From: Belliella buryatensis
GTDB lineage: Bacteria; Bacteroidota; Bacteroidia; Cytophagales; Cyclobacteriaceae
DNA: 64,000 nucleotides
Assembly: GCF_900188245.1 (NCBI RefSeq)
Contig: NZ_FZOK01000003.1
Location: forward strand, 1 to 64,000
Reading direction: 5' to 3'
Positions within the stretch are counted from its first letter, which is position 1. Every line of letters starts with the position of its first letter. The translations under genes were made by a program, and so were the position numbers. Under the pieces are notes generated by a model. It worked only from the letters and a program-made list of their open reading frames with translations. It was not told the origin of the DNA and ran no database searches. Shown piece after piece: positions 604 to 31,778 of this stretch.

Positions 604-1785
604 TTAATTTACCTCAAGTTCTAGCTCTTGAATAGCTGGTATTGCGATCATATTAAAGTAACTTACTTTAAAGAGGTGCATACCAAAACTAGATATTAAA
701 AGAAAAACAATAAGAGAAGTAACAAGTAAAGTGTCAGAAAATCTATTAAAAAATAGAATAGTAAAAAATAGTATTACGTCAAAAGAAAGCAAGAGTGCCA
801 CAACTTTGCGAGGGCCAAGTTTCAAGCTAAATAAATAATGATGAATATGTCTTTTGTCCGCTAAAAATGGCGAGGATTTATTGATAATTCTCAAGATAAA
901 AACCCTAAATGTGTCAAATATTGGAAATACTAAAAGGGAAATGATTAAAGCAACTGGTGAGGAAATTTTGTAAAAATGATCTATTGCTAGCCCCTGATTA
1001 GTTTTCAAAAACGCAATAGATAGTACCGCTATGGTAAAACCAATACTTAATGAACCTGTATCTCCCATAAAAATTCTCGCAGGAAACCAATTGAACATCA
1101 GAAAACCAGCTATGGCACCCAATAAAGCTAGCGCGATCAAAGCGTAGGTCTGCTCACCAATTAAAAAGAACCATGCTCCAAATACCATCAAAATAAAAGA
1201 GGATATCGTACTGAGCAAACCATCTATCCCATCAATTAAATTAAAAGCGTTGGTCAAGAAAACTATCACCAGTAAAGTCAAAATATAGCTCGAAATGTTT
1301 GATAAAGCCCCAATACCAAATAAACCATAGAAGCTGTCTATTTTCAAGCCTGTAAAAGCCATCACAAGAATGGCCAAGAACCCAATAATAAAAAGCTTGA
1401 TTTTAGCGCTTAAATTATATAAATCGTCGATTAAACCTGTAAAAAACACCAAAATAATACAGCTACACAAGAGTAGTAATTCAAATGAAAATATTGGGAT
1501 AGAAAACAAAAATACAGTAATAAAAAATGGAATAAGCACGCCTAATCCACCAGCAGTTGGGGTAAACACTGTATGCATTCTCCTGCTATCCAACCGATCA
1601 CCAATTTTCTTGTAAATCAAGAAAGAAATCACAGAAGGAAGGAAAAGAATACTCATTCCAAAAGATATAAGAGCTGATGAAACAATCGTCAAAATTATCA
1701 TAAATACATATTTAGAAATATCAATATTCATTATAGTTTCACTGAACATGGTGCCCAGTAAAACCACAAAGAAATCTATAATCAT
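604..1785 (-). CDS. WecA/MraY-like undecaprenyl-phosphate sugar-1-phosphate transferase
   Basis: A polytopic membrane enzyme of the polyprenyl-phosphate N-acetylhexosamine-1-phosphate transferase family, which puts the first sugar phosphate on undecaprenyl phosphate. The 393-residue protein has about ten or eleven hydrophobic segments and the family signatures: GLIDDLYNLSAK (Asp pair for Mg2+), NAFNLIDGIDGL, FMFNWFPARIFMGDTGS-type loop, and a late HIHHYL motif. It lies 18 bp behind the WecG-like glycosyltransferase at 1804-2616, so the two probably form an operon that builds the lipid-linked first disaccharide. This is the only initiating transferase visible in the EPS locus. The sugar substrate cannot be read from sequence. 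A second ATG at codon 14 is an alternative start. Confidence 0.88.
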   Translation of the reverse strand: MIIDFFVVLLGTMFSETIMNIDISKYVFMIILTIVSSALISFGMSILFLPSVISFLIYKKIGDRLDSRRMHTVFTPTAGGLGVLIPFFITVFLFSIPIFSFELLLLCSCIILVFFTGLIDDLYNLSAKIKLFIIGFLAILVMAFTGLKIDSFYGLFGIGALSNISSYILTLLVIVFLTNAFNLIDGIDGLLSTISSFILMVFGAWFFLIGEQTYALIALALLGAIAGFLMFNWFPARIFMGDTGSLSIGFTIAVLSIAFLKTNQGLAIDHFYKISSPVALIISLLVFPIFDTFRVFILRIINKSSPFLADKRHIHHYLFSLKLGPRKVVALLLSFDVILFFTILFFNRFSDTLLVTSLIVFLLISSFGMHLFKVSYFNMIAIPAIQELELEVN

Positions 1786-1803: not shown

Positions 1804-2616
1804 TCAGCTTTTACCTTGAAATCCATGAGCGCTATGAGTATCCGCTTCATTGACATTTGAACCACGAGAACCTACAAGCTGACGCATATATTCTAAAAAA
1901 ATATAGTGAAGAAATAACGGACTAGTAGTCAAGGTCCTTCTAAGAAGTCTAGTACTATGCAAAGATCTATGTAACCACTCTAAGCCATTATTGACCATAT
2001 AGCTAGGGGCTCTTTTAGTCGTACCAGCATAAAAGTCAAAGACTGCTCCTATATTACAAATAACATTGACATTCAAATTTTTTAAATTGGAATTTGTCCA
2101 TTTCTCTTGCTTAGGTGCAGTCATTCCTACAAACAAAAAATCAGGGTTAAAACTATTGATATAGCCCACTATCTCATCGTTGTCTTCATCTGTGAAATCT
2201 TTGGTAAATGGTGGTGAGAAACTTGCAAATACTACATTTGGATACTCCCTACTAAGCCTAGCACCTATTTTCTTTAATGTTTGTGAGGATGACCCCAGAA
2301 AAAAACACTTGATGGGTTCACTTTTCTTACTTTCTAAAATATGCATGAATAAATCAAATCCTGCAATCTTCTGAATTTTGGTTTTGTTGATCAACTTATT
2401 AGCAATTACAATCCCAATTCCATCAGGTAATAAAATATCAGAAACTTCGAGAGACCTACGAAAGGTTTCATCTTGTAATGTAATATGATAAGAGTGAGGA
2501 TTAATGGTATTGATAACTGTTCTTCTATTGAAATCAATTCTGCTTAAAGGATCACAAAAAATAGAAAAACCCAAAAGGTCAACAGTTTTGTATTTTTGAA
2601 GAAGTATCTGGTCCAT
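1804..2616 (-). CDS. WecG/TagA/CpsF family glycosyltransferase (GT26)
   Basis: A 270-residue cytoplasmic or membrane-associated glycosyltransferase, typically adding the second sugar to undecaprenyl-PP-GlcNAc, for example ManNAc(A). Family signatures are LLPDGIGIV near residue 82, the FVGMTAPKQEKW motif, GAVFDFYAGTTKRAP, and GLEWLHR towards the C-terminus. It is the first gene of a unit with the WecA-like gene downstream, which is the classic enzyme order of lipid-linked intermediate assembly. A palindromic element lies 90 bp upstream (2707-2722), with a possible promoter between (TTG, then TATCTTTA after 18 bases on the minus strand). Confidence 0.9.
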   Translation of the reverse strand: MDQILLQKYKTVDLLGFSIFCDPLSRIDFNRRTVINTINPHSYHITLQDETFRRSLEVSDILLPDGIGIVIANKLINKTKIQKIAGFDLFMHILESKKSEPIKCFFLGSSSQTLKKIGARLSREYPNVVFASFSPPFTKDFTDEDNDEIVGYINSFNPDFLFVGMTAPKQEKWTNSNLKNLNVNVICNIGAVFDFYAGTTKRAPSYMVNNGLEWLHRSLHSTRLLRRTLTTSPLFLHYIFLEYMRQLVGSRGSNVNEADTHSAHGFQGKS

Positions 2617-3215: not shown

Positions 3216-6200
3216 ATGAAAGCGAGGGGAACATTGATTATACTCAGTTTTGTCTTAGCTCTGTTTAGAGTTGAGGCAGCGACATACTATTTTTCAAGTC
3301 TACAAGGAGATGACTCAAGGACAGCAGTCCAAGCCCAAAATGAAAATACACCTTGGCGATCGATAGAAAAACTGAACAACATAATGGGGAGTCTATCTCC
3401 AGGAGATCAAATTCTTTTTAAAAGGGGTGAAGTATTTTTTGGGACTATCAAGATTACAAAATCTGGAAGCTCAACACTGCCTATTGTATTTGGAGCATAT
3501 GGTTCCGGAACAAAACCAGTACTTACAGGCATGCAAAGCATATCAAAATGGACTTCAGTTGGTAATGGCATATTTGTTTCTAACCTAGAAACTTCTGTAG
3601 AAGGGAGGGTAAATGTCGTCACCGTAGATAGTCAAATTCAAGAGATGGGAAGATTTCCCAATTTCAATGATAGTAATAAGGGATTCAAAATAATCAATTC
3701 ATCAAGTTCAAGTACACAACTTTCTTCTTCTGATTTTGGAAACAATGAAAACTGGACAGGTGCTGAAATAATCATCAGGAAAAATCCTTGGGTACATGAT
3801 AGGCATGTGATTACAAACAATAATTCCGGGAACATCAACTTCACAGATATTCAAAGCAAGTACCCAGTTACCAATGGTTATGGATTTTTCATCCAAAACC
3901 ATATCAAAACTTTGGATCAATATGGAGAGTGGTACTATGATATAAACAACAAGAAGCTTTATGTATTTTTTGGAAATCAAACTAACTTCCCCGAAGTTGA
4001 CATCAGTACAAAAAGCAATTTAATCGAATTGACTTGGAAAGTAAGCCACATTGAATTCAACGAATTGGAAATGCGAGGTGCAAATGGAACAGGTATCCTA
4101 ATCAATGAAGGTACACATGTACAGGTCAAAAATTCCACTATCAAATATATGGGTGAATATGCTGTCAGGGGAATAATTTCTAACCACCTAACTGTGGAAA
4201 ACTGCGAAATAGACTTTTCTTTAAATAACGCCTTGTATGCCGAAAATACGAGCCAAAACATAACATTTAAAAATAACCTCATCACTAACACTTATCCATT
4301 TATAGGAATGGCCAATAGCGGGGACCTCAATGGACAAGCCATCTACACAAGCAACAGGTCTCATAATGGACTAATCGAGAACAACAAAGTATTCAATACG
4401 GGGTACATTGGAATCAATTTTGGTGGTGATAATTCTGTAGCTCGCAAAAATTATATTAAAGACTTTTGCATTCATAAAACTGATGGAGGGGGGATCTATA
4501 TCTGGGAAGGATGGGATAATAAAAACTCCTCAGGAAGAATCATAGAGGATAATATCATTGTCAACGGACTGGGATACAGTAATGGAACAAACAAACATGG
4601 GCTAATAGACCCTATACCTGTAGAAGGAATCTATATTGATGATAACACTTCAGGTGTACTGATCCAAAATAACACCATTACCAATATTTCAAAACACGGG
4701 ATATACCTACACAATGCGAGAAATATTAAGATTCTAGATAATTTATTTTATAACGCATTTGAAGGAATCTACCTCAATCACGATCAATATGGCGACCCAG
4801 TCAGGGATATTATAATAGAACGAAATCGAATCTTTTCTATCACAGAAGGGGCAAATTTCATCAACACCTCCTCCATCAAAGAAGATGAAGCTGAAATGGG
4901 CTCTTTCAACAGTAATTTTTACATCAGACCTTTTGAAAATGATTTTGGATTCCTTACTAAGTATCTCAATCAACAAACTTGGGAAATGAAGTCCCAATTA
5001 TCTAATCTGAAAAGCTGGAATAAAGACCCTAATGGGAAACTCAGCCCTATCAATCACCAAGCTTATAGCGCCTATACGGAAATTGGGAGTAATCTTTTCC
5101 CAAATGGAAAATTTGATTCCAATGGCAATAATACTTTCTGTAAAAACTGTTCCATACTTTGGAAAAATACCGGTGATTTCCAAGATGGTCACATAGCTGT
5201 CAATACCGAGAAAGACGCTGAAATCAACTTCAGCTTAGGTAAAATGAAACCAGAAACAAGCTATATGCTTAAATTCAAAATCAAAGGAAGTACGCTGGGC
5301 AATTTAGAAATATTTATCAGAGAAGCTCAAACACCATGGAAAACGCTCTCAGGGTCCAAAGGCGTAGAAATCAATGATAAAATTACTGCCTTTGAAATTC
5401 CTTTTTTCAATAAGGTTGGAGCAGAAAAAGCAAACTTGATCATGAAATCAGGAGTAGATAATTTCAATTTCTCCATTGATGATTTTGAAATTATTGAAGC
5501 TAATATAGCCTATAATGAACCTGAAGATTATCTATTCTTCGCTTACAATGCTACCGGAACTTCTCAAAAACAAAATATAAGCGGAAATTATGTGGATGCA
5601 TACAACATACCCCATTCTGGTTCAATTGACATTCCTCCATTCTCCGCTATTGCGCTGATTAAGGTGAGTAATGATGAAGAAAAAACTCCACAACCTCCAA
5701 CAGTAACAATTCTAAATCCTAAACCAAATGCAGAAATAAAACAAGGGAACAAAGTGAGTATCAATATTGACGCAAAAAGTGAACATTCAGAAATCAAGCA
5801 AGTCGAGATTTACTTGAATGACAAACTGCTGAAGACTTTAGATAAAATACCATATACACATGATCATATATTTGAAAACACAGGAATCTATCTAATCAAA
5901 GCCAAAGCAATAGATCAACATGGTCAGGAGACAACCTCTACTCCTATACAAGTAAATGTTGAAAAAGAAGCTATAAGCCCTACTATCAGTTGGTTGACAC
6001 CAGCCCCTAATGACTTTTTTTTTGTGTCTGACCCAATCAAACTATCTGTTATTAGTGAAAATGAGAAACAAAATATTGTAAAAATTGATTTTTCAATCAA
6101 TAATAATGTTGTTGGCACTGTAAATAATGCACCTTATCAAATTACAGTTCCAAACTTACCATTAGGGGTATATAATCTATCAGCAAAAGCAACAAACTCA

Positions 6201-7097
6201 GATGGATCAGAAGGAACAACAGAAACGATCACCATCAAAGTGATTGAGGTAAAAAATATACCACCTACTGTAACTATCATATCACCAGGAAACAATGCAG
6301 AATTTACTCAAGGGGATGTGATTAGTATCAAAGCAATTGCTGAAGACAGCGATGGGACAATTTCGAAAGTGGAATTCTATATCGGAAATACTCTGATAGG
6401 AACAGACTACGAATCTCCATACAACTACAATTGGGGCAATGCTGGAAATGGAAAACACAACATTACTGCCAGAGCGACAGACAATCATGGAGCTGTTACA
6501 ACATCAGATGTGATTCAAATACAAGTAAAGCAAAGACCTAAAAATCCAAAGATCCGATTGATATTGCCAAAGAAGGACCCTCAATTCATCGAAGGCGATA
6601 TTTTAAAATTAGATATTGAAATATTAGAAGAGTCTACAGAAATCTCGAAAGTATCTTATTATAAAAATGATATACTACTAGGCAGTCGTACCAACGGGGA
6701 TTTTACCTTCAATTGGAAAGCTGACGTGGTTGGAGATTTACTGCTCACTGCTGTCGCAACAGACATCAACGGAGTCAATACCACAGATGAAAGATTAGTC
6801 AGCATCTTTTTAAAAGAAAACAAACTCAATAGGGACCTGAATATCAATGACTTCAAAATAGGTCCAAATCCTACCAGCCAATACCTCAATTTAATATTTA
6901 ATACCATAGAAACTACTTATCAAATGACAGCCGAAGTAGTTTCTTTAGATGGTAGAACCACCAAGAATTTTGCTTTTGAATTGTCAGAAAATGAAGTGAC
7001 TTTAGATTTGCTAGGACTTAGCCCAGGCCTGTATCTTCTTCGGATTCATTATGGTGGAGAGATTGTCATTACCAAAAAATTCATCATGAAAAATTAA
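3216..7097 (+). CDS. secreted parallel beta-helix protein with Ig-like domains and type IX sorting signal
   Basis: A 1293-residue secreted protein. A GTG at 3207 is in frame, but ATG 3216 with GGTGGG just upstream gives a clean signal peptide (about residues 1-21). Residues of roughly 25-560 resemble a right-handed parallel beta-helix of the pectate lyase/alginate lyase type, with many Asn-rich turns (VENCEIDF, IQNNTITNI, ILDNLFYNA) and DGGGIYIWEG. About residues 610-760 look like a jelly-roll carbohydrate-binding domain. Four Ig-like repeats start near 825, 921, 1015 and 1109, each opening with a P-x-I/V-P pattern. Residues from about 1211 (NDFKIGPNPTS) form a type IX secretion C-terminal sorting domain ending VITKKFIMKN. 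It lies on the opposite strand inside the EPS locus, so a role in cutting, epimerising or binding the EPS is plausible but unproven. Confidence 0.85.
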   Translation: MKARGTLIILSFVLALFRVEAATYYFSSLQGDDSRTAVQAQNENTPWRSIEKLNNIMGSLSPGDQILFKRGEVFFGTIKITKSGSSTLPIVFGAYGSGTKPVLTGMQSISKWTSVGNGIFVSNLETSVEGRVNVVTVDSQIQEMGRFPNFNDSNKGFKIINSSSSSTQLSSSDFGNNENWTGAEIIIRKNPWVHDRHVITNNNSGNINFTDIQSKYPVTNGYGFFIQNHIKTLDQYGEWYYDINNKKLYVFFGNQTNFPEVDISTKSNLIELTWKVSHIEFNELEMRGANGTGILINEGTHVQVKNSTIKYMGEYAVRGIISNHLTVENCEIDFSLNNALYAENTSQNITFKNNLITNTYPFIGMANSGDLNGQAIYTSNRSHNGLIENNKVFNTGYIGINFGGDNSVARKNYIKDFCIHKTDGGGIYIWEGWDNKNSSGRIIEDNIIVNGLGYSNGTNKHGLIDPIPVEGIYIDDNTSGVLIQNNTITNISKHGIYLHNARNIKILDNLFYNAFEGIYLNHDQYGDPVRDIIIERNRIFSITEGANFINTSSIKEDEAEMGSFNSNFYIRPFENDFGFLTKYLNQQTWEMKSQLSNLKSWNKDPNGKLSPINHQAYSAYTEIGSNLFPNGKFDSNGNNTFCKNCSILWKNTGDFQDGHIAVNTEKDAEINFSLGKMKPETSYMLKFKIKGSTLGNLEIFIREAQTPWKTLSGSKGVEINDKITAFEIPFFNKVGAEKANLIMKSGVDNFNFSIDDFEIIEANIAYNEPEDYLFFAYNATGTSQKQNISGNYVDAYNIPHSGSIDIPPFSAIALIKVSNDEEKTPQPPTVTILNPKPNAEIKQGNKVSINIDAKSEHSEIKQVEIYLNDKLLKTLDKIPYTHDHIFENTGIYLIKAKAIDQHGQETTSTPIQVNVEKEAISPTISWLTPAPNDFFFVSDPIKLSVISENEKQNIVKIDFSINNNVVGTVNNAPYQITVPNLPLGVYNLSAKATNSDGSEGTTETITIKVIEVKNIPPTVTIISPGNNAEFTQGDVISIKAIAEDSDGTISKVEFYIGNTLIGTDYESPYNYNWGNAGNGKHNITARATDNHGAVTTSDVIQIQVKQRPKNPKIRLILPKKDPQFIEGDILKLDIEILEESTEISKVSYYKNDILLGSRTNGDFTFNWKADVVGDLLLTAVATDINGVNTTDERLVSIFLKENKLNRDLNINDFKIGPNPTSQYLNLIFNTIETTYQMTAEVVSLDGRTTKNFAFELSENEVTLDLLGLSPGLYLLRIHYGGEIVITKKFIMKN

Positions 7098-7357: not shown

Positions 7358-8515
7358 CTATTCCTCTTGCAATAAAACAGCATGGCCAGATTTGATCAGT
7401 GCTATGTCTTTTTTGAATAGAGCTATATCGGCATGAACCATCTCTTTAATAAGGCTCTCCAAATTGTATTTTGGTTTCCAACCCAATTCACTATTTGATT
7501 TACTAGGGTCTCCTATCAATAAATCTACCTCAGTGGGTCTGAAATAGGAAGAATCAATTTCCACGAGAACATCGCCTTCCTTCACATGAAAACTCAGGTC
7601 TCCCAATGCTTGGAATGCCACCTCATGATTTATAGCATGCAAAATCCCGACTTCCTCTATCCCTTCTCCTTCAAATCTCAGGAGGAATCCTACTTCTTCG
7701 AAAGCTAAAGCTACAAAGTCTCGAACTTTAGTAGTAATTCCGGTGGCAATTACAAAATCAGAAGGCTTTTCTTGCTGTAAGATCAAATACATGGCTTCGA
7801 CATAATCTTTTGCATGACCCCAATCTCTGCGGGCATTGAGATTTCCCATGTATAGTACAGACTGCAAACCCAGTGCTATTTTGGAAACGGCCCTAGTGAT
7901 CTTGCGAGTGACAAAAGTTTCCCCTCTTAATGGCGATTCATGGTTGAAAAGAATCCCATTGCATGCAAACATTCCATATGCTTCTCTGTAATTTACAGTA
8001 ATCCAGTAAGCATATATTTTGGCGACTGCATAAGGAGATCTAGGATAAAAAGGGGTGTTCTCTGACTGAGGGACAGCCTGAACCATTCCATAAAGTTCAG
8101 AGGTAGACGCCTGATAAATTTTTGTCTTTTTCTCCATTCCAAGTAATCTTACAGCTTCCAGTAATCTTAATGTTCCTATTCCATCTGCATTTGCGGTATA
8201 TTCAGGAATATCAAAACTTACTTTGACATGACTCATAGCCGCAAGATTATAGATTTCATCTGGCTGTGTTTCTTGTATGATCTTAGTCAGATTCATAGAG
8301 TCCGTCATATCACCAAAATGCAGCTTGAAATTACAATTATCTGATTGAGGGTCTTGGTACAAATGGTCAATTCTATTTGTATTGAAAAGAGATGTTCTCC
8401 TTTTGATCCCGTGAACCATATACCCTTTAGATAGCAATAATTCAGATAGATAAGCTCCATCCTGTCCGGTAATCCCAGTAATCAGAGCTGTTTTTTTTAT
8501 CTTAGATGTTTTCAT
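7358..8515 (-). CDS. gmd: GDP-mannose 4,6-dehydratase
   Basis: Converts GDP-D-mannose to GDP-4-keto-6-deoxy-D-mannose, the first step of GDP-L-fucose synthesis. The 385-residue protein has an N-terminal Rossmann motif [15 protein letters not shown], the TSELYG segment that carries the catalytic Thr/Glu, and the SDR catalytic Tyr-Lys in [12 protein letters not shown]. The C-terminal part has an insertion of about 50 residues rich in acidic and hydrophobic residues before [11 protein letters not shown], which seems usual in Bacteroidota versions. It is the last gene of the four-gene nucleotide-sugar operon, 17 bp behind fcl, whose product uses its product. No strong terminator was found after it. 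Confidence 0.95.
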
Positions 8516-8532
8516 TTTGTGTTATTCAGGGA

Positions 8533-9492
8533 CTATGTATTGATTTTAACTTGCTTCAGATTATATGAATTTTCTAAATACCATTGATAGGTTGACTTGA
8601 TACCATCTTTGAGTTTAATCTTTGCCGACCAGCCTAATGCTGTCATTTTTGAAACATCCAATAATTTGCGTGGTGTACCATCTGGTTTTTGTGAATCCCA
8701 TAAGATTTGGCCTTTATGCCCCACAATTTCCTGAATCATCAATGCTAAATCTGAAATCGAGATCTCTTCGCCTGTTCCAATATTATAAAGGTTTTCAGGG
8801 AGCTTGTTTTCTAAAGCAAACAAAACAGCTTTTGCCAAATCATCCACGTGTAGAAATTCCCTTTTGGGGAATCCTGTACCCCAAAGTGTTACATTTTCAT
8901 GATCATTCATCTTAGCTTGATGAAACTTTGTAAGCATTGCAGGCAAAACATGTGAGGTCTCTGAGTCAAAATTATCCTTTGGGCCATAAAGGTTGGTTGG
9001 CATTAAGCTGTTGTAATCCTTGCCAAACTGCCTTCTTATGTATTCACAAGCTTTCACGCCCGTTATCTTTGCCAAGGCATATCCCTCATTCGTAGACTCC
9101 AATTGTGAGCTAAGCAAATAGCTTTCTTTGATGGGCTGAGGGGAGAGTTTTGGATAAATACACGAACTTCCTAGAAAAATGAATTTCTTACAATCATTCT
9201 CGAGAGCATATTCTATCAAGTTATTTTGTATCCTCATATTCTCCATCAAAAATTGATAGGGATGATCCTTATTTGCCATAATTCCACCAACCTTAGCCGC
9301 GGCATCAATAACTACAATAGGTTTTTCACTTGCAAAAAAATACTCTGTTTCCAGTTGGTTTTTCAAATCAATATCTTGACTGTTTCGTCCAAGGAGGTTT
9401 GAATAACCATTGGCTAGCAGCAAATCCCACACGGCAGAACCAACCATGCCTCTATGTCCAGCAATATATATTCTTGAATCTTTTGAAATCAT
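8533..9492 (-). CDS. fcl: GDP-L-fucose synthase
   Basis: A bifunctional 3,5-epimerase/4-reductase that turns the Gmd product into GDP-L-fucose. The 319-residue SDR protein has the NADP-binding GHRGMVGSAVW motif at residues 12-22, the AAAKVGGIMAN segment typical of Fcl/WcaG, a LGSSCIYPK segment with the catalytic Ser and Cys, and Tyr-Lys in YALAKITG. Length and motifs match the family closely. It lies between manC (4 bp away) and gmd, so the operon makes GDP-fucose from mannose-1-phosphate. This predicts fucose, or a related deoxyhexose, in the polymer. Confidence 0.95.
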   Translation of the reverse strand: MISKDSRIYIAGHRGMVGSAVWDLLLANGYSNLLGRNSQDIDLKNQLETEYFFASEKPIVVIDAAAKVGGIMANKDHPYQFLMENMRIQNNLIEYALENDCKKFIFLGSSCIYPKLSPQPIKESYLLSSQLESTNEGYALAKITGVKACEYIRRQFGKDYNSLMPTNLYGPKDNFDSETSHVLPAMLTKFHQAKMNDHENVTLWGTGFPKREFLHVDDLAKAVLFALENKLPENLYNIGTGEEISISDLALMIQEIVGHKGQILWDSQKPDGTPRKLLDVSKMTALGWSAKIKLKDGIKSTYQWYLENSYNLKQVKINT

Positions 9493-9496
9493 GACG

Positions 9497-10492
9497 TCAT
9501 CTTAAGTAGGTAGGGTTTTCTATCTCAAGTCTTTCATAGACTTTTTTGACATCTTGAGCATTGTGTTTATTGAGAACCAAAATGGCATCTTTTGTCTCAA
9601 CCAAAATTAAGTTATCAACCCCTACAAACTCTACGAGTTTTTTGGTATTCAAGGAAAGGTTAGTTGTAGACTTCCTTGCATCTTCGGCGGGAATAGTGTC
9701 GTATATTGCCATAAAACTTCCCATATCAGACCACTCAAAAAAGGAAGGGATCACTTTAACCTTGGTTGTCCTTTCCATTACAGCATAATCAACACTAATA
9801 GAAGGAATCTTTTGAGAAAGAATTTCATTCAAGAAAATTCCATTACTTTTGAAAAAAGCCCTTCTGCTAGTTTCATATACTTCTGGCTCATACTTACTCA
9901 ACTCCTCTAAGTAAACACCTGCCTTGAAACAAAAACAACCACTATTCCAAAGAAAATTTCCTGACTTTAAATAAGAAGCTGCTTGTTCTTTATTGGGCTT
10001 TTCTCTAAAGGAGATCACATCATGATCGACAAATTCAATATATCCAAAACCAGTCTCTGCACTTTTGGGCTTTAGTCCAAAAGTGACAATGAAATTTTGT
10101 TTTGCTTTGGCTATGGCTTTATTCAAGGCTTTTTGATACTCTTGCTCATTATTGATCAAATGATCTGATGGAGTCACTACCAAAATGTCATCCGAATCAG
10201 CTTCAAACGCCGCAAATGCAATCGCAGCAGCTGTATTGCGAGGCAAAGCTTCTACAATTTCCGAATAGGGTTTTACTTTTAACTTCTTCAAAATATTTCT
10301 TGAAAGCATGTAGTTATCGATACCTCCTACTACACAGATTTTGTCGCAGATTTTCTTATTTCTTTCCACTGCCAATTCAAAAAGTGACTTGCCATCAAAT
10401 AAAGGCAAATACTGCTTAGGACGTGATTTACGAGATAGTGGCCAGAGCCTACTTCCTACTCCTCCAGATAGGATTACATTAATTGTTTTCAT
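9497..10492 (-). CDS. manC: mannose-1-phosphate guanylyltransferase
   Basis: Makes GDP-mannose from mannose-1-phosphate and GTP. The 331-residue protein has the nucleotidyltransferase signature ILSGGVGSRLWPLSRK and RPKQYLPL, then VTPSDHLI, FREKPNKEQA and FLWNSGCF. It ends after the transferase and short C-terminal region, so it lacks the cupin phosphomannose isomerase domain of bifunctional ManC/AlgA. Mannose-6-phosphate isomerase and phosphomannomutase are not in the window and must be elsewhere. The start ATG overlaps the stop of the upstream SAF-domain gene by four bases (ATGA), so the two are translationally coupled. Confidence 0.95.
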   Translation of the reverse strand: MKTINVILSGGVGSRLWPLSRKSRPKQYLPLFDGKSLFELAVERNKKICDKICVVGGIDNYMLSRNILKKLKVKPYSEIVEALPRNTAAAIAFAAFEADSDDILVVTPSDHLINNEQEYQKALNKAIAKAKQNFIVTFGLKPKSAETGFGYIEFVDHDVISFREKPNKEQAASYLKSGNFLWNSGCFCFKAGVYLEELSKYEPEVYETSRRAFFKSNGIFLNEILSQKIPSISVDYAVMERTTKVKVIPSFFEWSDMGSFMAIYDTIPAEDARKSTTNLSLNTKKLVEFVGVDNLILVETKDAILVLNKHNAQDVKKVYERLEIENPTYLR

Positions 10493-11688
10493 GGCTGATT
10501 ATTTAGTTTTTCGACTATCAAGTCAAATTCTATATTCACTTTTTGATCTTTTAAGGTCTCATTCCAAGCTGTCAAGGCCATGGAACGAGGAATGTCTATA
10601 TCAGAGAAAGTAATGATTTGGCCTGCTTCGACGTTTTCTTTGATTACTACATTCTGCATGAGCCCTACCGGAACATGATTAGGTTCTTCACATATCCGGA
10701 CTGCCTCACCTCGAATATCAAAACTCCCTATTCCGTTCAAAATAAAATCACCCTTGTCTAGCTTCCTTTTTGCAATGGCTGCTACACTGATGCTGGGGTG
10801 CTGACCATTGTTGATCAAGACTTCCTTGGTTTCCAAGAGTCTCTTTATGGTTCCTGGAATTTCAAAAAAACAAAGATGTGCGGGTTTGTAATGATGATAA
10901 TAAGGCCCATCACCCATTTTGTAAGTTTGCAATTCGGTCCTCATAGATTCTCTATGGGTTGAAACAATGAATACACCCGGTGGCGCACTTTTAGATAAAA
11001 TATAATCACTAATCACCAACCCTGATTGGCTAGCTAAATCAGCCAACATAAAACCTGAGTTGACAAAATCTTCAGTTTCAAAACCTTCCATACCTTGTTT
11101 TGAAATCCCAGCATCAAATGCATTAGCTACTAATGCTTGTTCGATCTGAACCTTTGTTCCATCTGTGAATGAGGTGACAGAATTCAAAGAGTAGCCTTGC
11201 TTTAGTGCCCAATAACTCATGTCATCTGCTGTAGGGTTCAGGTTTCTAAACCCCTTTATATTACCATAGACAAGAGGCTCAAAGCCCATTTCCATGATTT
11301 CTTTCCTGAGAATAGCCAAACAACCAGGCTGATCACCATTGGATTCCGTGATCAAACCCTGCTTTGAAAGCCATGTACCAGTAGTCACCATCGTATCAGC
11401 ATCCATTGTCACTACTGGTAAATTATATTTGAATGCTTCAAAAATGACAGCTGTACTATAAATAGGATCTCCTGTACTGACCACAATTATGTCTGATTTA
11501 GAAAAAAATTTCTCAGGTGATTGAAATACAAGTTCTTTAGCAATCTCTAAACCATTGATAACTCCTTGTCTTCGGGTTAAAACACCAGAAATAGTCATTT
11601 CCTTATTGCCTGATAAAAGCTTGACCAATCCTCTGATAATCCAACCTGTACCAACTAATCCAACTTTGATTTTATCATCTCCTTCCAT
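10489..11688 (-). CDS. NAD(P)-dependent oxidoreductase with C-terminal SAF domain, homoserine dehydrogenase-like
   Basis: A 399-residue protein like the COG4091 'predicted homoserine dehydrogenase with SAF domain' group. The N-terminus is a Rossmann fold (VGLVGTGWIIRGLVKLL, residues 9-25) and a conserved middle contains YYHHYKPAHLCFFEIP. A SAF-like region (about residues 330-395) contains VVIKENVEAGQIITFSDIDIP, as in sialic acid synthase and antifreeze-type domains. True homoserine dehydrogenase is a housekeeping enzyme, so this copy, the first gene of a GDP-sugar operon and coupled by ATGA overlap to manC, probably acts on another small polyol or sugar acid. The actual substrate is unknown. 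An RBS CTGGAGAA precedes the ATG, and a palindromic element lies 53 bp upstream. Confidence 0.75.
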   Translation of the reverse strand: MEGDDKIKVGLVGTGWIIRGLVKLLSGNKEMTISGVLTRRQGVINGLEIAKELVFQSPEKFFSKSDIIVVSTGDPIYSTAVIFEAFKYNLPVVTMDADTMVTTGTWLSKQGLITESNGDQPGCLAILRKEIMEMGFEPLVYGNIKGFRNLNPTADDMSYWALKQGYSLNSVTSFTDGTKVQIEQALVANAFDAGISKQGMEGFETEDFVNSGFMLADLASQSGLVISDYILSKSAPPGVFIVSTHRESMRTELQTYKMGDGPYYHHYKPAHLCFFEIPGTIKRLLETKEVLINNGQHPSISVAAIAKRKLDKGDFILNGIGSFDIRGEAVRICEEPNHVPVGLMQNVVIKENVEAGQIITFSDIDIPRSMALTAWNETLKDQKVNIEFDLIVEKLNNQP

Positions 11689-11741
11689 TTCTCCAGTGTT
11701 TAAAATACCATATCTGAAGTTAAGGATTTTTTATTATTAAA

Positions 11742-11757
11742 CAACATTTATTTGTAT
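11742..11757. promoter_or_regulatory. palindromic element, variant copy 3
   Basis: CAACATTTATTTGTAT matches the 16-bp element at 13 of 16 positions, with ACA and TGTAT in register. It lies 53 bp upstream of the SAF-domain oxidoreductase start, the first gene of the GDP-sugar operon. A second similar sequence follows at 11763-11777. Confidence 0.4.
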
Positions 11758-12102
11758 TTAAAATACATTTTTATTGTTTTAAAATAATTTTTAGAATAAA
11801 GAAATAGGAATTATTACCCAAAAAAAGTTTAATAAAACATAAAACTAGGAGCTATGAATTCCATATTTCGTACTTAAGGTTCATCCACCCTTCATTGGGT
11901 ATGTTTTTCCCAAAAGAATATAGTAAATTATACCAGTGCACCAACAAAGAAAAAGACTTGAGGTGTGAGCGCTAAAGCTTGGTCAAATGAAAATATGAAT
12001 CTAATATTTTTGTGAAAAATTAATCTTGCATCCTCATGCAAAAAGTAGATCCAATGTTAGAATAATAGTCAAAAAACAAAAAAATCATAGGACACTACAC
12101 TT

Positions 12103-12132
12103 TCAAAAAAAATTAAACTAGTGAATTTCACT
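12103..12132 (-). terminator. terminator of the ten-gene EPS operon
   Basis: Read on the minus strand, AGTGAA-A-TTCACT (12120-12132) forms a short hairpin, followed after a few bases by a run of eight T (12105-12112). It lies 32 bp after the stop of the last glycosyltransferase gene. The stem is only 6 bp, so strength is uncertain. Confidence 0.45.
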
Positions 12133-12163
12133 TGCTTAGTCAAAAAATATTCATTCACTTTAG

Positions 12164-13246
12164 TTATAGATTCCTAAATAAACTTGCGAGTTCGTCCCCG
12201 AATAATTTGGAATTATATTTCTCTTCAAATAGACTTTTGGCTTTTTTCCCCATTTGATTTAGTTTCTGATGATTGTAAAGCAATTCGAGCAAAACTGGTT
12301 TCCAAGCCTCCACTTCGTGACTTTGAATCGTAACTCCAAAACCGGCTAAACTGGGATTAATATCAACATATTTATTGGCTGTCATTACCACCGGCTTACC
12401 AATAGCCATAGCATCTAGCAAAACTGTAAGCCCTAAAGTCCTCCCAGAGTTGATCGTCTCTTTCTTGATTGGAATAAGAATAAGTCGTGACTTTCTATAC
12501 CTTTCTAAGAGTTCTATATAGGGAATGAAATTAGCATTGATGGTAATATGTGCTGGAAGGTCTACAACTTTTGGAATCGTGGCAGGAGTACAATAAATCT
12601 CTAAAGGAAATTCAATCTCTCTGAAAACTTCAATAATCAGTTCAAAATCCCGGTCTGTAGCACCTGCACAGATTGCAAAACTTGACTCTTCTGAGGGGAT
12701 TGATTGATCTTTGCCTTCATAGAAGCTTTTCTCTGCACCCCAATTTAAATGAGTAAATTGATTTTGAATTGTATCAGGGTCAATCGCGAGATCCAAACTA
12801 GTTTTCTTCAGTAATTCGCTACTCAAAAACCCTATTCGGTCATATTGTAATAAAAGCTTTCTTTTGATCCCGTGTTTTTGCCCCTCCAAAGGCGGGGAAT
12901 ACAAGTTTTGATGACCTAAGGCTACAATTGGTTTTTTGAAAATCCCCAAATATTTCAATATAGTCAAAAGCCTTGTATTACTCAATGGAAAAGGGGCATA
13001 GATGATATCATAATTTTTTCTTAAAAGGAATGTCCTCAACTGTTGATCAAGGAAGTTGATTCTGAAAAACCTACCTATTCGATTGAGTAGCGGATACTTT
13101 TCAAATGGCAGGATATCAACTTCAAAACCCTCAAGTTTTTCTAAGTCTATTTTGCCAAATAGAAAATGTCCAGGACTTCTACCTTCTACCCAATCTTCAT
13201 AGATTTTATCAAAGGAATAAGAGTTTATCAAAAGTATTTTCTTCAT
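12164..13246 (-). CDS. glycosyltransferase, GT-B fold
   Basis: Last gene of the long EPS operon. I place the start at the ATG reading MKKILLINSY (360 residues), 11 bp after the upstream stop; an in-frame ATG at 13276 would add ten residues and overlap that gene by 19 bases. The protein has an N-terminal Rossmann-like half and a C-terminal half with a donor-binding region containing SGRTLGLTVLLDAMAIGKPVVMT, which resembles the E-x7-E area of GT4-type enzymes. It should transfer one sugar of the EPS repeat unit in the cytoplasm. Donor and linkage cannot be predicted. Confidence 0.75.
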   Translation of the reverse strand: MKKILLINSYSFDKIYEDWVEGRSPGHFLFGKIDLEKLEGFEVDILPFEKYPLLNRIGRFFRINFLDQQLRTFLLRKNYDIIYAPFPLSNTRLLTILKYLGIFKKPIVALGHQNLYSPPLEGQKHGIKRKLLLQYDRIGFLSSELLKKTSLDLAIDPDTIQNQFTHLNWGAEKSFYEGKDQSIPSEESSFAICAGATDRDFELIIEVFREIEFPLEIYCTPATIPKVVDLPAHITINANFIPYIELLERYRKSRLILIPIKKETINSGRTLGLTVLLDAMAIGKPVVMTANKYVDINPSLAGFGVTIQSHEVEAWKPVLLELLYNHQKLNQMGKKAKSLFEEKYNSKLFGDELASLFRNL

Positions 13247-13257
13247 AATATTTGGGT

Positions 13258-14385
13258 TTAATTTTTGGAAAGACATGCAAGTATTCCATTGCCGAAATTC
13301 TGCACCATAGTTTCAATGTTCAATGTTTTCAATGCTTCAAGTCCCTGAGCTTTGAAGGCATATCTCAAATCGGTGTTTTGCATCAGCTGAAGGACTTTGT
13401 CATTGAAATCGCATATATCATTCTTGGCTATAAAGCCATTATGATGATTCTTGATATATTCGATCTCAGGGCCATGGAAGGGAAATTCTATAGTAACTAT
13501 GGGGGTCTCATATGCAAATGCATCCAAAACAGCCAAGCCCATAGCTCCTGGTAAAACAAAAATATCTGCTAGCCTAAAATACTTGGCTTTTTCAATTCCA
13601 TACTTCGGCCCTAGATATGTGATATATTCAATGTTTTTCACAAAGTTTTCTATAGCAAGTTGCTCAGGCCCACTGCCCAATATCAAAAGCTTAAAACTCT
13701 TTGAATAAAGCTTTCTGAGTTTGATAATAGATTCTAGTAGGAAAGACAAGTTCTTTTCTCTGGAAAGTGCACCACAGTAAATCAATACTTTTTCATCCAA
13801 GTCTATCCCTAAATCTAATCTCAGTTGAGCGATCTCTTCATCCGCAAAAGAGAGGTATTGAGCCCTTAATGTATGGGTGTCGATCGCATTTTGAACTACA
13901 GTGATTTTTTCCATTTTGACACCTTTTTCAATCAAAAATCTCTTTACACCTTCTGTATAAGGAAACCACCAAGAAGATTGATTAATGTATGTCATCTTGA
14001 ACTTATTATAGAGACCATCCTTGGCCACTTGTAGGTTTTGTCCATGTCCCCAAAAAGCAAATTTCCTTTGGAAGAATACTCTTCTCAAAATCAAAAGATA
14101 ATTGATCAATAGCATATTGGCTTGCTCCACAATTACTAAATCTGAATTTCTAAGAAGACTCAGACAAGGCTGCCATATCAAGGCTATATCTCCTATCTGA
14201 ACTGAACTATTTTTTATAAAAGTAGCCCAAGGTAAATCCACCGAATCATTTCTCCCCTGAAATCCATTATCCCCATAAATCAGCTGAAGCTGAATATTTT
14301 GCTTTAATAGAAATGCCTTAAGCTGGTTATAAAACTCGACCCTGTATTGCGGAATGGTTCTATATATGATAGTTACTTTTTTCAT
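13258..14385 (-). CDS. glycosyltransferase family 4
   Basis: A 375-residue GT-B enzyme. The C-terminal domain has the usual GT4 features: YCGALSREKNLSFLLESI, LLILGSGPEQ, and VLPGAMGLAVLDAFAYETPIVT, where the Gly-rich/acidic segment binds the nucleotide sugar. The N-terminal domain opens MKKVTIIYRTIPQYRVEFY, a pattern of EPS GT4 enzymes. It starts 11 bp after asnB and is followed closely by the next glycosyltransferase. Cytosolic, probably membrane-associated; it adds one residue of the repeat unit, donor unknown. Confidence 0.88.
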   Translation of the reverse strand: MKKVTIIYRTIPQYRVEFYNQLKAFLLKQNIQLQLIYGDNGFQGRNDSVDLPWATFIKNSSVQIGDIALIWQPCLSLLRNSDLVIVEQANMLLINYLLILRRVFFQRKFAFWGHGQNLQVAKDGLYNKFKMTYINQSSWWFPYTEGVKRFLIEKGVKMEKITVVQNAIDTHTLRAQYLSFADEEIAQLRLDLGIDLDEKVLIYCGALSREKNLSFLLESIIKLRKLYSKSFKLLILGSGPEQLAIENFVKNIEYITYLGPKYGIEKAKYFRLADIFVLPGAMGLAVLDAFAYETPIVTIEFPFHGPEIEYIKNHHNGFIAKNDICDFNDKVLQLMQNTDLRYAFKAQGLEALKTLNIETMVQNFGNGILACLSKN

Positions 14386-14396
14386 GATAGGAGGAT

Positions 14397-16295
14397 TTAG
14401 AGGTTATTGATTCCATAAGCCTTAGCCCATATTTCTAGATTAATAATTCTCCAAAAAGGGAATTCCTTATTTTCTTTTACATTGGCAAACTTCTCCTTGA
14501 TTGCTAATGCATCCCAAATCTTTCTAGATTTAAAACTATCCCTATCCAAAATAGAAAAAATTAGTTTTTTGAAATCATCATTGTCTTCTAAATAAATCAG
14601 AAATGGTGTCCTAAATCCGATCTTTTTCCTATTTCTAGAAATAGATGAAGGTAAATCCTTCCCAATAGTATCCCTTTGAATTTTCTTTGTTATCCCTTTC
14701 GAAAATTTCATTTCCACTGGAATTGAAAAAGCAAATTCCATCAATCTATAATCCATAAATGGGGATCTTATTTCTATGGATTGATTCATTGACGAACTAT
14801 CTTCATATTGAAGTATTGTATTGATTCCTTGATAATTAATCTGATGAAGGAGGTATTTATTAAAACTATCTGCTCCAAATGAAAACTTATAGAATTGCTT
14901 AAAATGTGTCTTATTCTTTTTTACAAATTCAGGATTTAAAATATCAAGTGTTTTTTCTCGATACTTTGCACGTAAATAGGACGCAGTGGATTGATTAAGA
15001 ACTGCCTTGAACATCTGAGAAATAAGGAAGATATTGGAATAACCATTGATTCTTCTTAGAGCCATATATTCTTTCCAAAACTCAACTGGACCTTTAAAGA
15101 GTTTTGAAACTAGAAAAACACCTGCTATGTACTGAATATAACCTGCAAAAGCCTCATCACTTCCTTGTCCATTGAGCACCACTTTGATTCCCTCTTTTTT
15201 ACAGAGCTTCATAATCTTATTATGAGCTATTGAAGCAAAAGAACCCAAAGGTTGATCTAATTCTGCAAGTGATTTTTCAAAGTCCAATACCAATTCCTCT
15301 TTTTCAATCCGCATTTCATGAAGCTTAATGTGATCACAGGTAGCCACAAACTCCCGAACCAAGGCTGTCTCATCATCCTCAAAGTCTGGAAACGAGGCAG
15401 TATATGCATGCAAGATATTATCATGTAAACAACCTGATTCAATCAGCCGATCGGCAACTTTGGCTATAGCTGTAGAATCTAAACCTCCACTAAGCATAAT
15501 AGCCACTGACACATCACTTCTAAACCTGATTTTAACAGCATCCTCAAAAAGTGCTAGATATGCTTCTTCATAACTAACCTTCAGATCGTGCTTTGTGTGG
15601 TTTTCCCCCAATTGCCAATACCTATGCGTTTCAATCTGAGCTGATTCAATGATAAGGTTTGTGCCGGGAAGTAATTCAGAGCAATCCTCAAAAAAAGTTT
15701 CGCCATCATTTACCCTGTAGCCATATGCCAAATATTCATAGACTTTCCCGAAGTTGGCTTTATTTAAGCCACATGCCGAGTGGATAGCCTTCAATTCGCT
15801 TGAAAAGAACATCACCCCAACACTTACCGCATAATAAAATGGCTTGACTCCAAAACGATCTCTTGAACAAAATATTTTTTTTGTCCGAAAATCATAAATG
15901 GCAAATGCCCACATACCATTGAAGTGATGGACGCAAAACTCTCCATATTCCTTGTATGCTAGGAGAATCACTTCAGTATCAGATTCATTCTGAAAAGTAT
16001 ATCCCTTATTTTGGAGTTCTACTTTTAGTTCCAAGTAATTATAAATTTCACCATTGAAAATAATGGCCAAACCTAAGGCTTCATTGGCCATGGGTTGATC
16101 AGCATTACTGGATAGATCTATAATACTCAATCTATTGAATGCAAACCCAACTTTATCCTTGAAGAAAAAACCATCAGAATCAGGACCCCGATGAGCGGTC
16201 AACTGATTCATTTTCTTGAGCTTGGAACTGAGAATCCCAGCCCTTGTCTCAGACAAATCATTTTGCAAATCCACGAATCCATTTATTCCACACAT
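14397..16295 (-). CDS. asnB: glutamine-hydrolysing asparagine synthase family protein
   Basis: A 632-residue class II glutamine amidotransferase/ATP-PPi synthetase. After removal of Met1, Cys2 of MCGINGFVDL is the glutaminase nucleophile; RLSIIDL (55-61), NGEIYN (81-86) and SDTEVI support the domain. The synthetase half has the PPi loop SGGLDS at 269-274. In polysaccharide clusters such enzymes often form an amide on a uronic acid of the glycan rather than free asparagine. Here the gene is embedded among glycosyltransferase genes, five bases from its upstream neighbour and 11 from the next gene, so a sugar amide is the likelier role; that is inference from context. Confidence 0.88.
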   Translation of the reverse strand: MCGINGFVDLQNDLSETRAGILSSKLKKMNQLTAHRGPDSDGFFFKDKVGFAFNRLSIIDLSSNADQPMANEALGLAIIFNGEIYNYLELKVELQNKGYTFQNESDTEVILLAYKEYGEFCVHHFNGMWAFAIYDFRTKKIFCSRDRFGVKPFYYAVSVGVMFFSSELKAIHSACGLNKANFGKVYEYLAYGYRVNDGETFFEDCSELLPGTNLIIESAQIETHRYWQLGENHTKHDLKVSYEEAYLALFEDAVKIRFRSDVSVAIMLSGGLDSTAIAKVADRLIESGCLHDNILHAYTASFPDFEDDETALVREFVATCDHIKLHEMRIEKEELVLDFEKSLAELDQPLGSFASIAHNKIMKLCKKEGIKVVLNGQGSDEAFAGYIQYIAGVFLVSKLFKGPVEFWKEYMALRRINGYSNIFLISQMFKAVLNQSTASYLRAKYREKTLDILNPEFVKKNKTHFKQFYKFSFGADSFNKYLLHQINYQGINTILQYEDSSSMNQSIEIRSPFMDYRLMEFAFSIPVEMKFSKGITKKIQRDTIGKDLPSSISRNRKKIGFRTPFLIYLEDNDDFKKLIFSILDRDSFKSRKIWDALAIKEKFANVKENKEFPFWRIINLEIWAKAYGINNL

Positions 16296-16299
16296 AGCG

Positions 16300-17346
16300 C
16301 TATTCTTTTATGAATTCATGTTCTTTTTTGCCCAACCCATCATATAACTTGGTTAGTTCAAAGCCGAATTGCTCCCAAGTATTTTCTTCAAAAAATCCAT
16401 CCAATTGAAGCTTATCTTCAGTTTGAACTTCCTTATAACTGCTTAGTATTTCCCTCACATCCTCAAAAGCATCATAATTTTCAATGATGTTTAGATAAGA
16501 AAGATCCTTAAATGCACCGATCTTAGGACCGAGAATTTTTGTATTCATCCTCAATGAGTCCATCAAGGTTCCTGAGCTCAATAGGGAAGGAGAATTGTAT
16601 GGAAAAAAAACATACTTTACCTTCTCTGCATAAACCGAGATCTGTTCAAGTGTCTTGAATTCATTGATATGAGCTACATTCACTCCTAGACATTCATTCA
16701 ACCTGCTGAGGTAGGCTTCATCAAAGCATTTTCCGATAACCAATACCTTTACAGCTTGCCCTTTACTTTTGTCACAATCCAAAAATTCTAAAAACTCAGC
16801 TATTCCCTTGTAGGGGTGCAGAGCGCCCCAAATAAGTAAATCATATTCCTTTGAAGGGTGGTCTATATTTTTGAACTTTGACTTGGTAGGGTGTGGAAAA
16901 TAGTGAACCTTCCCTTCCATCCCAGCAAACTCCTCAGCGACAAACCGAACCCCTTCTTTGGAGTGGGTAATGATCAAATCTGACTTTTGAATCAAAATCT
17001 TATACATCAAATCTGTCCAAAAATTCTTCTCTGTTGCATGAGAATACTTATTATGTAGTATCCAGATCATCTTCTTACCCATCACCTTGGCAATTCTTGT
17101 GAAAAAAATAAAGAACAATACTTGAAATTTTCCAAAGCGATAAATTGGGAAATTTTCCACCCAATTGAATAAATACACATCTGTTTGTCTCAGATTCTCA
17201 AAAAACTCCAAAACCCCACCCCTATTATCATTTTCATTAATTATGGTGAAATGCTTGGAGAGTTCCGCTTCAAGGTTCATGATATATGGATTCGGAGAAT
17301 CAACTTTTGTGAAATCCACTTTCGGGTAAAAGAAAAGCCTATCCAT
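16300..17346 (-). CDS. glycosyltransferase, GT-B type
   Basis: I start it at the ATG reading MDRLFFYPKVDFTK, one base after the stop of the upstream gene (348 residues). An in-frame ATG at 17430 would overlap that gene by 83 bases and add an out-of-character leader. The protein has an N-terminal half with an IFFTRIAKVMGKKMIWILHN stretch and a C-terminal half with YDLLIWGALHPYKGIAEFLEF, where GALHPYKG is the GT4-like nucleotide-sugar site. It resembles GumK or mannosyl/glucuronosyl transferases only in general form. It should add one sugar of the repeat unit. Confidence 0.75.
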   Translation of the reverse strand: MDRLFFYPKVDFTKVDSPNPYIMNLEAELSKHFTIINENDNRGGVLEFFENLRQTDVYLFNWVENFPIYRFGKFQVLFFIFFTRIAKVMGKKMIWILHNKYSHATEKNFWTDLMYKILIQKSDLIITHSKEGVRFVAEEFAGMEGKVHYFPHPTKSKFKNIDHPSKEYDLLIWGALHPYKGIAEFLEFLDCDKSKGQAVKVLVIGKCFDEAYLSRLNECLGVNVAHINEFKTLEQISVYAEKVKYVFFPYNSPSLLSSGTLMDSLRMNTKILGPKIGAFKDLSYLNIIENYDAFEDVREILSSYKEVQTEDKLQLDGFFEENTWEQFGFELTKLYDGLGKKEHEFIKE

Positions 17347-17347
17347 T

Positions 17348-21156: not shown

Positions 21157-21168
21157 AATGCTTTAAAT

Positions 21169-22548: not shown

Positions 22549-22560
22549 CTCAAATTAATT

Positions 22561-24894: not shown

Positions 24895-24895
24895 G

Positions 24896-25690
24896 TTAGT
24901 TGAATAAATTTTGATAATTGAAGATTATTGCAACCAAGACAGATGAAGCGACCGAAAGCACAGTAATCAAAGTGGAGTTGTTTTTAGCATCTTTTTCTTT
25001 TTGCCCGTGAGGCTCTACATAGATGATATCATTTTGCTGTAAATAATAGTAGGGGGAATTTAAGATATCCTTATTATTCAAATTGACTCTGTACACGTTT
25101 CTTACACCTTCAATATCCCGCATGATGAGCACATTTTCTCTTTTGCCATAGAGCGTAAGGTCTCCAGCCAATCCTATAGCTTCGAAAATATTTATCCTTT
25201 CAGATCCGACCAGAAAATTTGAGGGCCTATTGACTTCTCCTATGACTGTTACTTTAAAATTTGTAATGATGAGGTTCACGCTAGGTTCTTTCACTTGAGA
25301 TTTGAGTAAAAATTTCAACTCTTCCCGAGCCTCATGTAAAGTCAGACCTTGAAGCTTTATTTGTCCTAAAATTGGAAATTCAATGAACCCTTCTTTGCCT
25401 ACTAAATAGATATTCTGATCAGTACTTTCTTGCCTTATTTCAAGGCCATTGATGGTCTCAATATTTTCTGCAACTTTCCCCCTATTAAAAAGTAAATTTG
25501 CCTCCGTACTGGGACTATTGACTGTAATTCTTACTCTATCAAAAGGTTTAATTCTGATTTCAGACACCTCCCTTACTGCAATCGAATAATTAGAATTTGG
25601 TTCTATATCACTAAAATAGGTAAGGTTTCTCTTGGCGCAGCCGCTTATAAGTAGTGCCACAAGTAAAAATGGTAAGGTTAAAGTTTTCAT
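24896..25690 (-). CDS. wza: Wza-like polysaccharide export lipoprotein
   Basis: A 264-residue outer membrane lipoprotein. The signal peptide ends in LISGC with Cys18 as the lipidated residue. A polysaccharide export (Poly_export) domain follows (about 45-130: IRIKPFDRVRITVNSP, LIGKEGFIEFPILGQIKL-like), then an SLBB-type domain (about 140-225: VTVIGEVNRPSNFLV, INIFEAIGLAGDLTLYGKRENVLIM) and a C-terminal hydrophobic helix (about 240-258). First gene of the EPS operon, with a 16-bp palindrome 58 bp upstream and the likely promoter between. Confidence 0.95.
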   Translation of the reverse strand: MKTLTLPFLLVALLISGCAKRNLTYFSDIEPNSNYSIAVREVSEIRIKPFDRVRITVNSPSTEANLLFNRGKVAENIETINGLEIRQESTDQNIYLVGKEGFIEFPILGQIKLQGLTLHEAREELKFLLKSQVKEPSVNLIITNFKVTVIGEVNRPSNFLVGSERINIFEAIGLAGDLTLYGKRENVLIMRDIEGVRNVYRVNLNNKDILNSPYYYLQQNDIIYVEPHGQKEKDAKNNSTLITVLSVASSVLVAIIFNYQNLFN

Positions 25691-31774: not shown

Positions 31775-31778
31775 GACA

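Follow-up and report, generated by a model that had tools for sequence, protein, structure and literature searches.

The first 64,000 nucleotides of contig C50 (NZ_FZOK01000003.1) of Belliella buryatensis, which has a genome of 3.88 Mb, are referred to here as the window and include a locus for exopolysaccharide (EPS) synthesis in which a single large gene is read in the opposite direction to the genes on either side of it. The 1293-amino-acid product of this gene is best explained, with in our view somewhat better than an even chance, as a GH141-like glycoside hydrolase that is exported by the type IX secretion system (T9SS) and acts on the EPS polymer of its own locus. This explanation draws on the domain architecture of the protein, its predicted fold, a conserved pair of aspartates, a linkage to EPS genes that recurs in other genomes, and the opposite orientation of the gene. 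An original prediction, made from the letters of the sequence, had proposed a type IX-sorted beta-helix protein on the opposite strand of an EPS locus, which is confirmed by the open reading frame (ORF), by Pfam and NCBIfam, and by the flanking reverse-strand genes; its suggestion of an enzyme acting on the polymer of the locus can be upheld as probable, as predicted from fold, residues and gene position.

The AlphaFold model of residues 21-830, built from 71 sequences, has a pLDDT of 93.6 and a pTM of 0.92. Its top structural match is the GH141 enzyme BT_1002 (5mqp), at a Foldseek E of 5.9e-18 and a VIA Z of 29.0 over 466 aligned residues (2.8 A), and the two share a beta-helix carrying an inserted beta domain. 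Second by fold are GH136 structures (Z 23-26.5, the best over 387 residues), and third is the alginate lyase PsAly (6kfn; Z 25.1, 272 residues), which we take to be a member of PL31. Further matches include AlgE epimerases (up to 23.6, for AlgE6), PL6 (up to 22.8), RbmB (22.2), XylC of GH120 (21.7 over 435 residues) and the beta-helix adhesin PfbA (19.8). The right-handed parallel beta-helix is common to many families, PL6/AlgE-type structures scoring Z 21-24, and is not diagnostic; since all of these matches share it, rank by itself is no proof. By sequence profile the leaders were 9rx2, GH136 chains and 5mqp (E 1.8e-18 to 1.1e-10). The best sequence match of the N-terminal cap is the GH136 structure 5gqc (E 5.5e-15), significant only over about the first 114 residues, so that the resemblance to the GH136 lacto-N-biosidase LnbX is limited by sequence to this part of the protein. 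The profile match to PsAly is likewise confined to the cap (E 8.5e-7), and AlgE and PL6 chains reach only E 0.027 and 0.25, which places the protein in neither family by sequence. No lyase or epimerase family appears in the Pfam list for the protein up to E 10, and YGxDPH, presumably the AlgE/AlgG motif, is absent from residues 1-620. The structure 9rx2, entitled "Parallel beta-helix repeat protein", is matched by a GH141 profile at E 5.7e-83 and by the profile of the window protein and its relatives (the window family) at E 1.8e-18; the literature search found no paper naming it.

Rank by fold is complemented by the residues of a putative active site. Two aspartates, D523 and D564, are described as essential in BT_1002 (PMC10154630; PMC12786026). 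In the 5mqp chain two aspartates stand in the blocks MYDVAGVYTL and YLYTDEGSS, 41 residues apart by count, as are D523 and D564; the 5-residue offset between the two numberings follows from our reading of the chain numbering. A profile-to-profile comparison of the window family with GH141, represented by 17 proteins from the same bacterial family, gave a match over 475 columns (Prob 99.9, E 1.1e-34) in which D423 (KTDGGGIY) and D475 (GIYIDDN) aligned with the GH141 pair. The GH141 alignment (A4) holds 17 of the 21 available proteins, L146 having been omitted for an overlong start and L150, L151 and L152 by no strict rule; these four are included in the tree below and show the first-Asp motif. 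Both aspartates, as well as Y428 and N446, are kept in all 71 sequences of the window family (the window protein and 70 relatives), D476 in 67 and K421 in 65; the Asp pair and the Tyr are kept in 17/17 GH141 rows, in which a Lys at the K421 position does not occur. The loop between the two aspartates spans 52 residues in the window protein, 38 in L154 and 41 in BT_1002. D423 and D475 are thus candidate catalytic residues, and the earlier remark that no recognized catalytic residues were present is superseded by their alignment with the essential pair of BT_1002. The enzymatic nature of the protein is predicted from its fold together with these residues.

The alternative that survives best, although we consider it unlikely, is that the protein is a non-catalytic component of the matrix, an anchor or adhesin in which the beta-helix and a carbohydrate-binding module (CBM) bind EPS and an Ig-like stalk fastens the whole to the cell. 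The CBM-like domain, the Ig-like repeats and type IX sorting are all in keeping with such a role, as is the match of the model to the adhesin PfbA. It accounts poorly for the GH141 Asp pair being kept in every one of the 71 sequences, and for the pattern of conservation relative to Belliella aquatica, the nearest named relative (67-68% identical across residues 1-830), in which the helix is 76% identical versus 45% for the Ig region, a bias that a mere scaffold would not need.

The predicted hydrolase resembles the characterized members of GH141, namely BT_1002 of Bacteroides thetaiotaomicron, Xyn141E and the Wf141 endo-fucanases, in its beta-helix, in an insert that begins after about residue 108 and in the same two aspartates; the insertion domain of BT_1002 is given as residues 109-295 (PMC10154630). 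It differs from them in its EPS-locus context and in the addition of a CBM4-like domain, an Ig stalk and a T9SS tail, and long alignments between the two groups show 20-22% identity. In a 55-row tree the 21 GH141 proteins formed one group (support 100/100) that excluded the window family; the tree is unrooted, and its GH141 rows are Cyclobacteriaceae only, selected by GH141_M. The window family as a single group received low support (46/23). Seven other rows fell beside GH141 (two), beside the window family (four) or, in one case, on a branch of length 4.4 that is probably an unrelated ORF (L177_2_1504). Membership inside GH141 is not supported, given the separate branch, and the protein is best read as GH141-like, probably belonging to a sister group beside GH141.

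Crucial to the proposed substrate is the company in which the gene is found. A genome scan reaching beyond the genus yielded 71 distinct loci, taken from the 80 best among 155 confirmed stretches, in Cyclobacteriaceae, Sphingobacteriaceae, Chitinophagaceae, Saprospiraceae, Spirosoma and kin, Hymenobacter and Bacteroidales. When probed with the 16 EPS genes of the window (blastp, E 1e-10), a choice of probes that favors near relatives, 38 of the 71 loci contained at least one EPS homologue and 34 at least two; 13 of the loci are shorter than 12 kb, and among the 58 of at least 12 kb the count is 30. The original prediction had named absence of the gene from the EPS loci of relatives as grounds for abandoning it, and this did not occur. 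Of 20 regions of 20 kb taken arbitrarily from four related genomes, one held a single EPS homologue and none held two. A sharper control is provided by 18 loci of 15-20 kb surrounding proteins that GH141_M identified in the same bacterial family, none of which contained any EPS homologue (Fisher p 6.5e-5 for loci with at least two, window family versus GH141, uncorrected for relatedness). The 34 positive loci are spread over 16 of 29 genus-level groups. The orientation seen in the window also recurs: of the 38 loci, 31 have every EPS homologue opposite to the family gene, five have every one on its strand and two are mixed; by genus-level group the figures are 13 opposite, three same and two mixed or varied. 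In two Pedobacter loci (L052, L055) the family gene is flanked by two sets of EPS genes that point in opposite directions. Near neighbors in the 38 loci (122 proteins of 140-900 aa, two per side) matched Glycos_transf_1 (22), WecG (15), GDP_Man_Dehyd (6) and Bac_transf (6), a count that is descriptive, the loci having been chosen for their EPS genes. Among 106 neighbors of the EPS-negative loci (140 found, 130 below 900 aa, 106 scanned), HSP70 was matched by 10, MOSC by 8, Beta_helix by 7 and GH43 by 6; glycosyltransferase families had at most one match each. Association with EPS loci is thus a frequent feature of the family, though not a universal one.

These neighborhoods also bear on a second rival, improbable and ranking below the matrix protein, in which the enzyme is catabolic, degrades a foreign polysaccharide such as fucoidan, pectin or xylan, and is functionally unrelated to the EPS locus. 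The characterized GH141 enzymes are described as fucosidases, endo-fucanases and one xylanase (PMC10154630 and PMC12786026 among the sources), and the GH43 neighbors noted above would suit a catabolic setting. Such a role does not explain why at least two EPS homologues occur in 16 of the 29 genus-level groups of the window family and in none of the 18 GH141 loci. Moreover, SusD is not among the families that match at least two of the 106 or at least three of the 122 neighbors, all of them proteins of no more than 900 aa.

Several findings weigh against the reading of the protein as a GH141-like hydrolase of its own EPS. On the full protein the GH141_M profile scores 23.4 and 24.4 bits, under its cut-off of 27, and 27.2 bits in the genome search. 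The conserved K421 and Y428 flank D423, and PsAly, a small single-domain alginate lyase of Paenibacillus with a bound cation, is described as using a Lys/Tyr pair (Tyr184 and Lys221; PMC6796002). No homologue of the EPS genes of the window was found in 33 of the 71 loci, several of them on short contigs, and 10 of these 33 have a DnaK-like ORF in the vicinity of the family gene. This DnaK neighborhood is a second conserved place for the family and is seen in four genera, among them Cyclobacterium and Lunatimonas (L042, L046, L048, L053, L054, L056, L057, L058, L059 and L090). Finally, gmd scores over its cut-off in 8/8 Belliella genomes, with or without the beta-helix gene, and is present in only six of the 71 loci; a link to fucose as a general rule is ruled out by these two counts.

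The third place of PsAly by fold and the conservation of K421 and Y428 are the reasons for retaining as a rival the direction that the original prediction had favored, a polysaccharide lyase or C5-epimerase on uronate-containing EPS, which is the least probable of the three, for the structure search shows that PL6, AlgE and PsAly share the fold (and PsAly the cap) and all rank under GH141, the nearest enzymes in profile match, fold ranking and active-site residues are GH141 and, for the cap, GH136, the GH141 profile match runs over 475 columns, and the sequence evidence for AlgE, PL6, Pfam lyase or epimerase families and the YGxDPH motif is marginal or negative as given above.

The remaining features of the gene and its surroundings are collected in Table 1. 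The ORF was verified on the forward strand (3207/3216-7097, with ATG at 3216), and it is evidently not a chance frame, because long orthologues are present in four of the seven other Belliella genomes. Pfam recognizes Beta_helix (E 3e-20) and four stretches of Big_7 (E 1.9e-50), so that the four Ig-like repeats of the original prediction stand. The C terminus matches Por_Secre_tail (PF18962; 38.3 bits, cut-off 27) and the T9SS type A tail TIGR04183 (32.6 bits, cut-off 23), as is characteristic of type A cargo, and from this tail export to the surface via the type IX system is predicted. The carbohydrate-binding domain that had also been proposed fares less evenly: the family profile matches the CBM4 structure 1gui weakly (E 5.7e-4 and 0.0023 in two profile searches), Foldseek places the region near the porphyran-binding CBM 8xmz (TMt 0.77) and again 1gui, and CBM_4_9 is matched by five of 61 complete relatives, but Pfam finds no CBM family in the window protein itself.

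Table 1. Features of the beta-helix gene and of the surrounding EPS locus (window coordinates).
Feature	Position	Strand	Basis
GH141-like beta-helix protein, 1293 aa	3216..7097	+	ORF call plus Pfam/NCBIfam matches
Probable signal peptide, residues 1-23	3216..3284	+	by eye from sequence
N-terminal cap with initial coils of the helix, residues 24-108, GH136 lacto-N-biosidase-like	3285..3539	+	profile matches
Beta-domain insert, about residues 109-270, in GH141 insertion-domain position	3540..4025	+	sub-cut-off to borderline GH141_M scores; BT_1002 insert position
Main right-handed parallel beta-helix, about residues 271-590	4026..4985	+	Pfam, AlphaFold model, structure comparison
D423, candidate catalytic Asp, DGGGIY motif	4482..4484	+	71/71 aligned sequences
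D475, candidate catalytic Asp, GIYxDD motif	4638..4640	+	71/71 aligned sequences
CBM4-like beta-sandwich, about residues 620-770	5073..5525	+	profile and Foldseek matches
Four Big_7 Ig-like repeats, about residues 830-1200	5703..6815	+	Pfam
Type IX secretion C-terminal sorting domain	6864..7085	+	Pfam, NCBIfam
WecA-like initiating phosphoglycosyltransferase	604..1785	-	NCBIfam, under equivalog cut-off
WecG/TagA/CpsF glycosyltransferase	1804..2616	-	NCBIfam; divergent neighbor in 5/5 Belliella genomes with long gene
gmd, GDP-mannose 4,6-dehydratase	7358..8515	-	family match
fcl-like epimerase (probable GDP-fucose synthase)	8533..9492	-	Epimerase family; specific name inferred from adjoining gmd
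manC-like mannose-1-phosphate guanylyltransferase	9497..10492	-	family match
Remaining EPS genes: DRL-type oxidoreductase, glycosyltransferases, AsnB-like, Wzx-like, Wzc-like, Wza-like	10489..25690	-	family matches

Across the family the accessory domains vary. Among the 61 complete relatives (of 70 ORFs), at E <=0.001, 51 carry the type IX tail, 37 Big_7 and 24 Malectin, and a few match CBM_6, CBM_35, NPCBM or PA14. A constant core with changing binding domains fits a carbohydrate-active enzyme. In three relatives the assembly breaks within the Big_7 array (L022/L029, L023/L028 and L024/L030); identical stretches of 127, 127 and 103 bases are shared between the ends at the break, and the gene in these relatives is therefore longer than either piece. 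The length of the stalk may thus be variable and under-reported in assemblies. In a sample of 148 genomes from the bacterial family to which B. buryatensis belongs, 37 match at E <=0.001, 18 of them below 1e-40, the genome of B. buryatensis included. Two sequences were left out of the alignments, the distant relative L027/G055 from A1 and L092, which has stop codons within the matched range, from A2.

Within Belliella the gene is divergent from the adjoining WecG gene in all five genomes in which the long form occurs (the window and four orthologues). On its other side it adjoins gmd in the window and in two of the orthologue-bearing genomes; of the remaining two, one has gmd at a distance of about 13 kb and one has it on a different contig. 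The three genomes without a long orthologue comprise two without a WecG match and one with a 51% WecG copy. In the window, reverse-strand EPS genes occupy 604-2616 on one side of the forward-strand beta-helix gene and 7358-25690 on the other. The DRL-type oxidoreductase of this locus (PF21135; 10489-11688, reverse strand) is 64-75% identical in the loci of three relatives. The divergent intergenic region (window 2617-3215) measures some 500-700 bp in the five Belliella genomes (L033, L034, L035 and L036 among them), and a block of roughly 40 bp close to WecG (window about 2679-2722) is strongly conserved across them. The window's only two ACATAAAAATGTT sites (at most one mismatch) fall in this region, each facing outward to its gene; two such sites also arose in 6/100 shuffles, and the second is not kept in relatives. 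The promoter scan (31 versus 30.8 in shuffles) and the terminator scan (4 versus 4.2) showed no excess, and no RNA family reached its gathering score in window 1-30000. Farther along, a PorP/SprF gene adjoins a gene for a type IX protein with SprB-repeat, PKD and CHU_C domains (window 30749-33866, reverse strand), a probable adhesin pair.

Enzymes with a comparable role are known from other bacteria. WceF of Pantoea stewartii is a hydrolase, secreted and built as a parallel beta-helix, that is encoded in the stewartan cluster and cuts the EPS of that cluster, and its loss is reported to lead to longer chains (PMC7949094); the likeness drawn here is by description, and WceF differs in being trimeric, phage-tailspike-like and equipped with a Tat signal. 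RbmB of Vibrio cholerae, a beta-helix enzyme of the Vibrio biofilm gene cluster, cuts the EPS of the cell that makes it, and its deletion is reported to impair dispersal (PMC11637428); it differs in being a lyase, and its solved structure comprises a chain of about 350 residues. The window protein is, like these two, a beta-helix protein encoded in an EPS locus, and its export is predicted from the T9SS tail. The role accordingly has precedents. A literature search, mostly at record level, found no published description of the present enzyme group, with export by the T9SS and a spread through Bacteroidota.

If the protein is indeed a GH141-like hydrolase, its gene would be transcribed apart from the flanking EPS genes, from a promoter of its own, and the product would pass the outer membrane through type IX secretion, as established for T9SS cargo in general. 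The Ig-like stalk may serve to hold the enzyme at the surface or to release it, and to give it reach. The CBM would grip EPS while a two-Asp active site on the parallel beta-helix hydrolyzes glycosidic bonds, as GH141 enzymes do. The gene's position suggests that the substrate is the EPS made by the surrounding genes. A deoxy-sugar such as fucose is our first guess for the bond cut, in view of the adjoining gmd and fcl-like genes and of the endo-fucanases within GH141. Cutting could set chain length, viscosity or the release of cells, and the opposite strand might, as a guess, allow the enzyme to be produced at a different time from the polymer, with trimming or release as the purpose.

A broader proposal, which we put forward tentatively and regard as doubtful at present, is that these proteins constitute a distinct glycoside hydrolase family, sister to GH141, whose T9SS-exported members are standing remodelers of EPS in many Bacteroidota, so that EPS loci would each have a matched and separately transcribed endo-glycanase and the family would amount to a catalogue of EPS-specific depolymerases. 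The two aspartates make the hydrolase claim directly testable. If it holds, the family would be a Bacteroidota counterpart of WceF and RbmB that employs another enzyme group and another export route, and would stand for a large number of enzymes, each possibly suited to the polymer encoded alongside it, that would be useful for solving EPS structures and for loosening biofilms.

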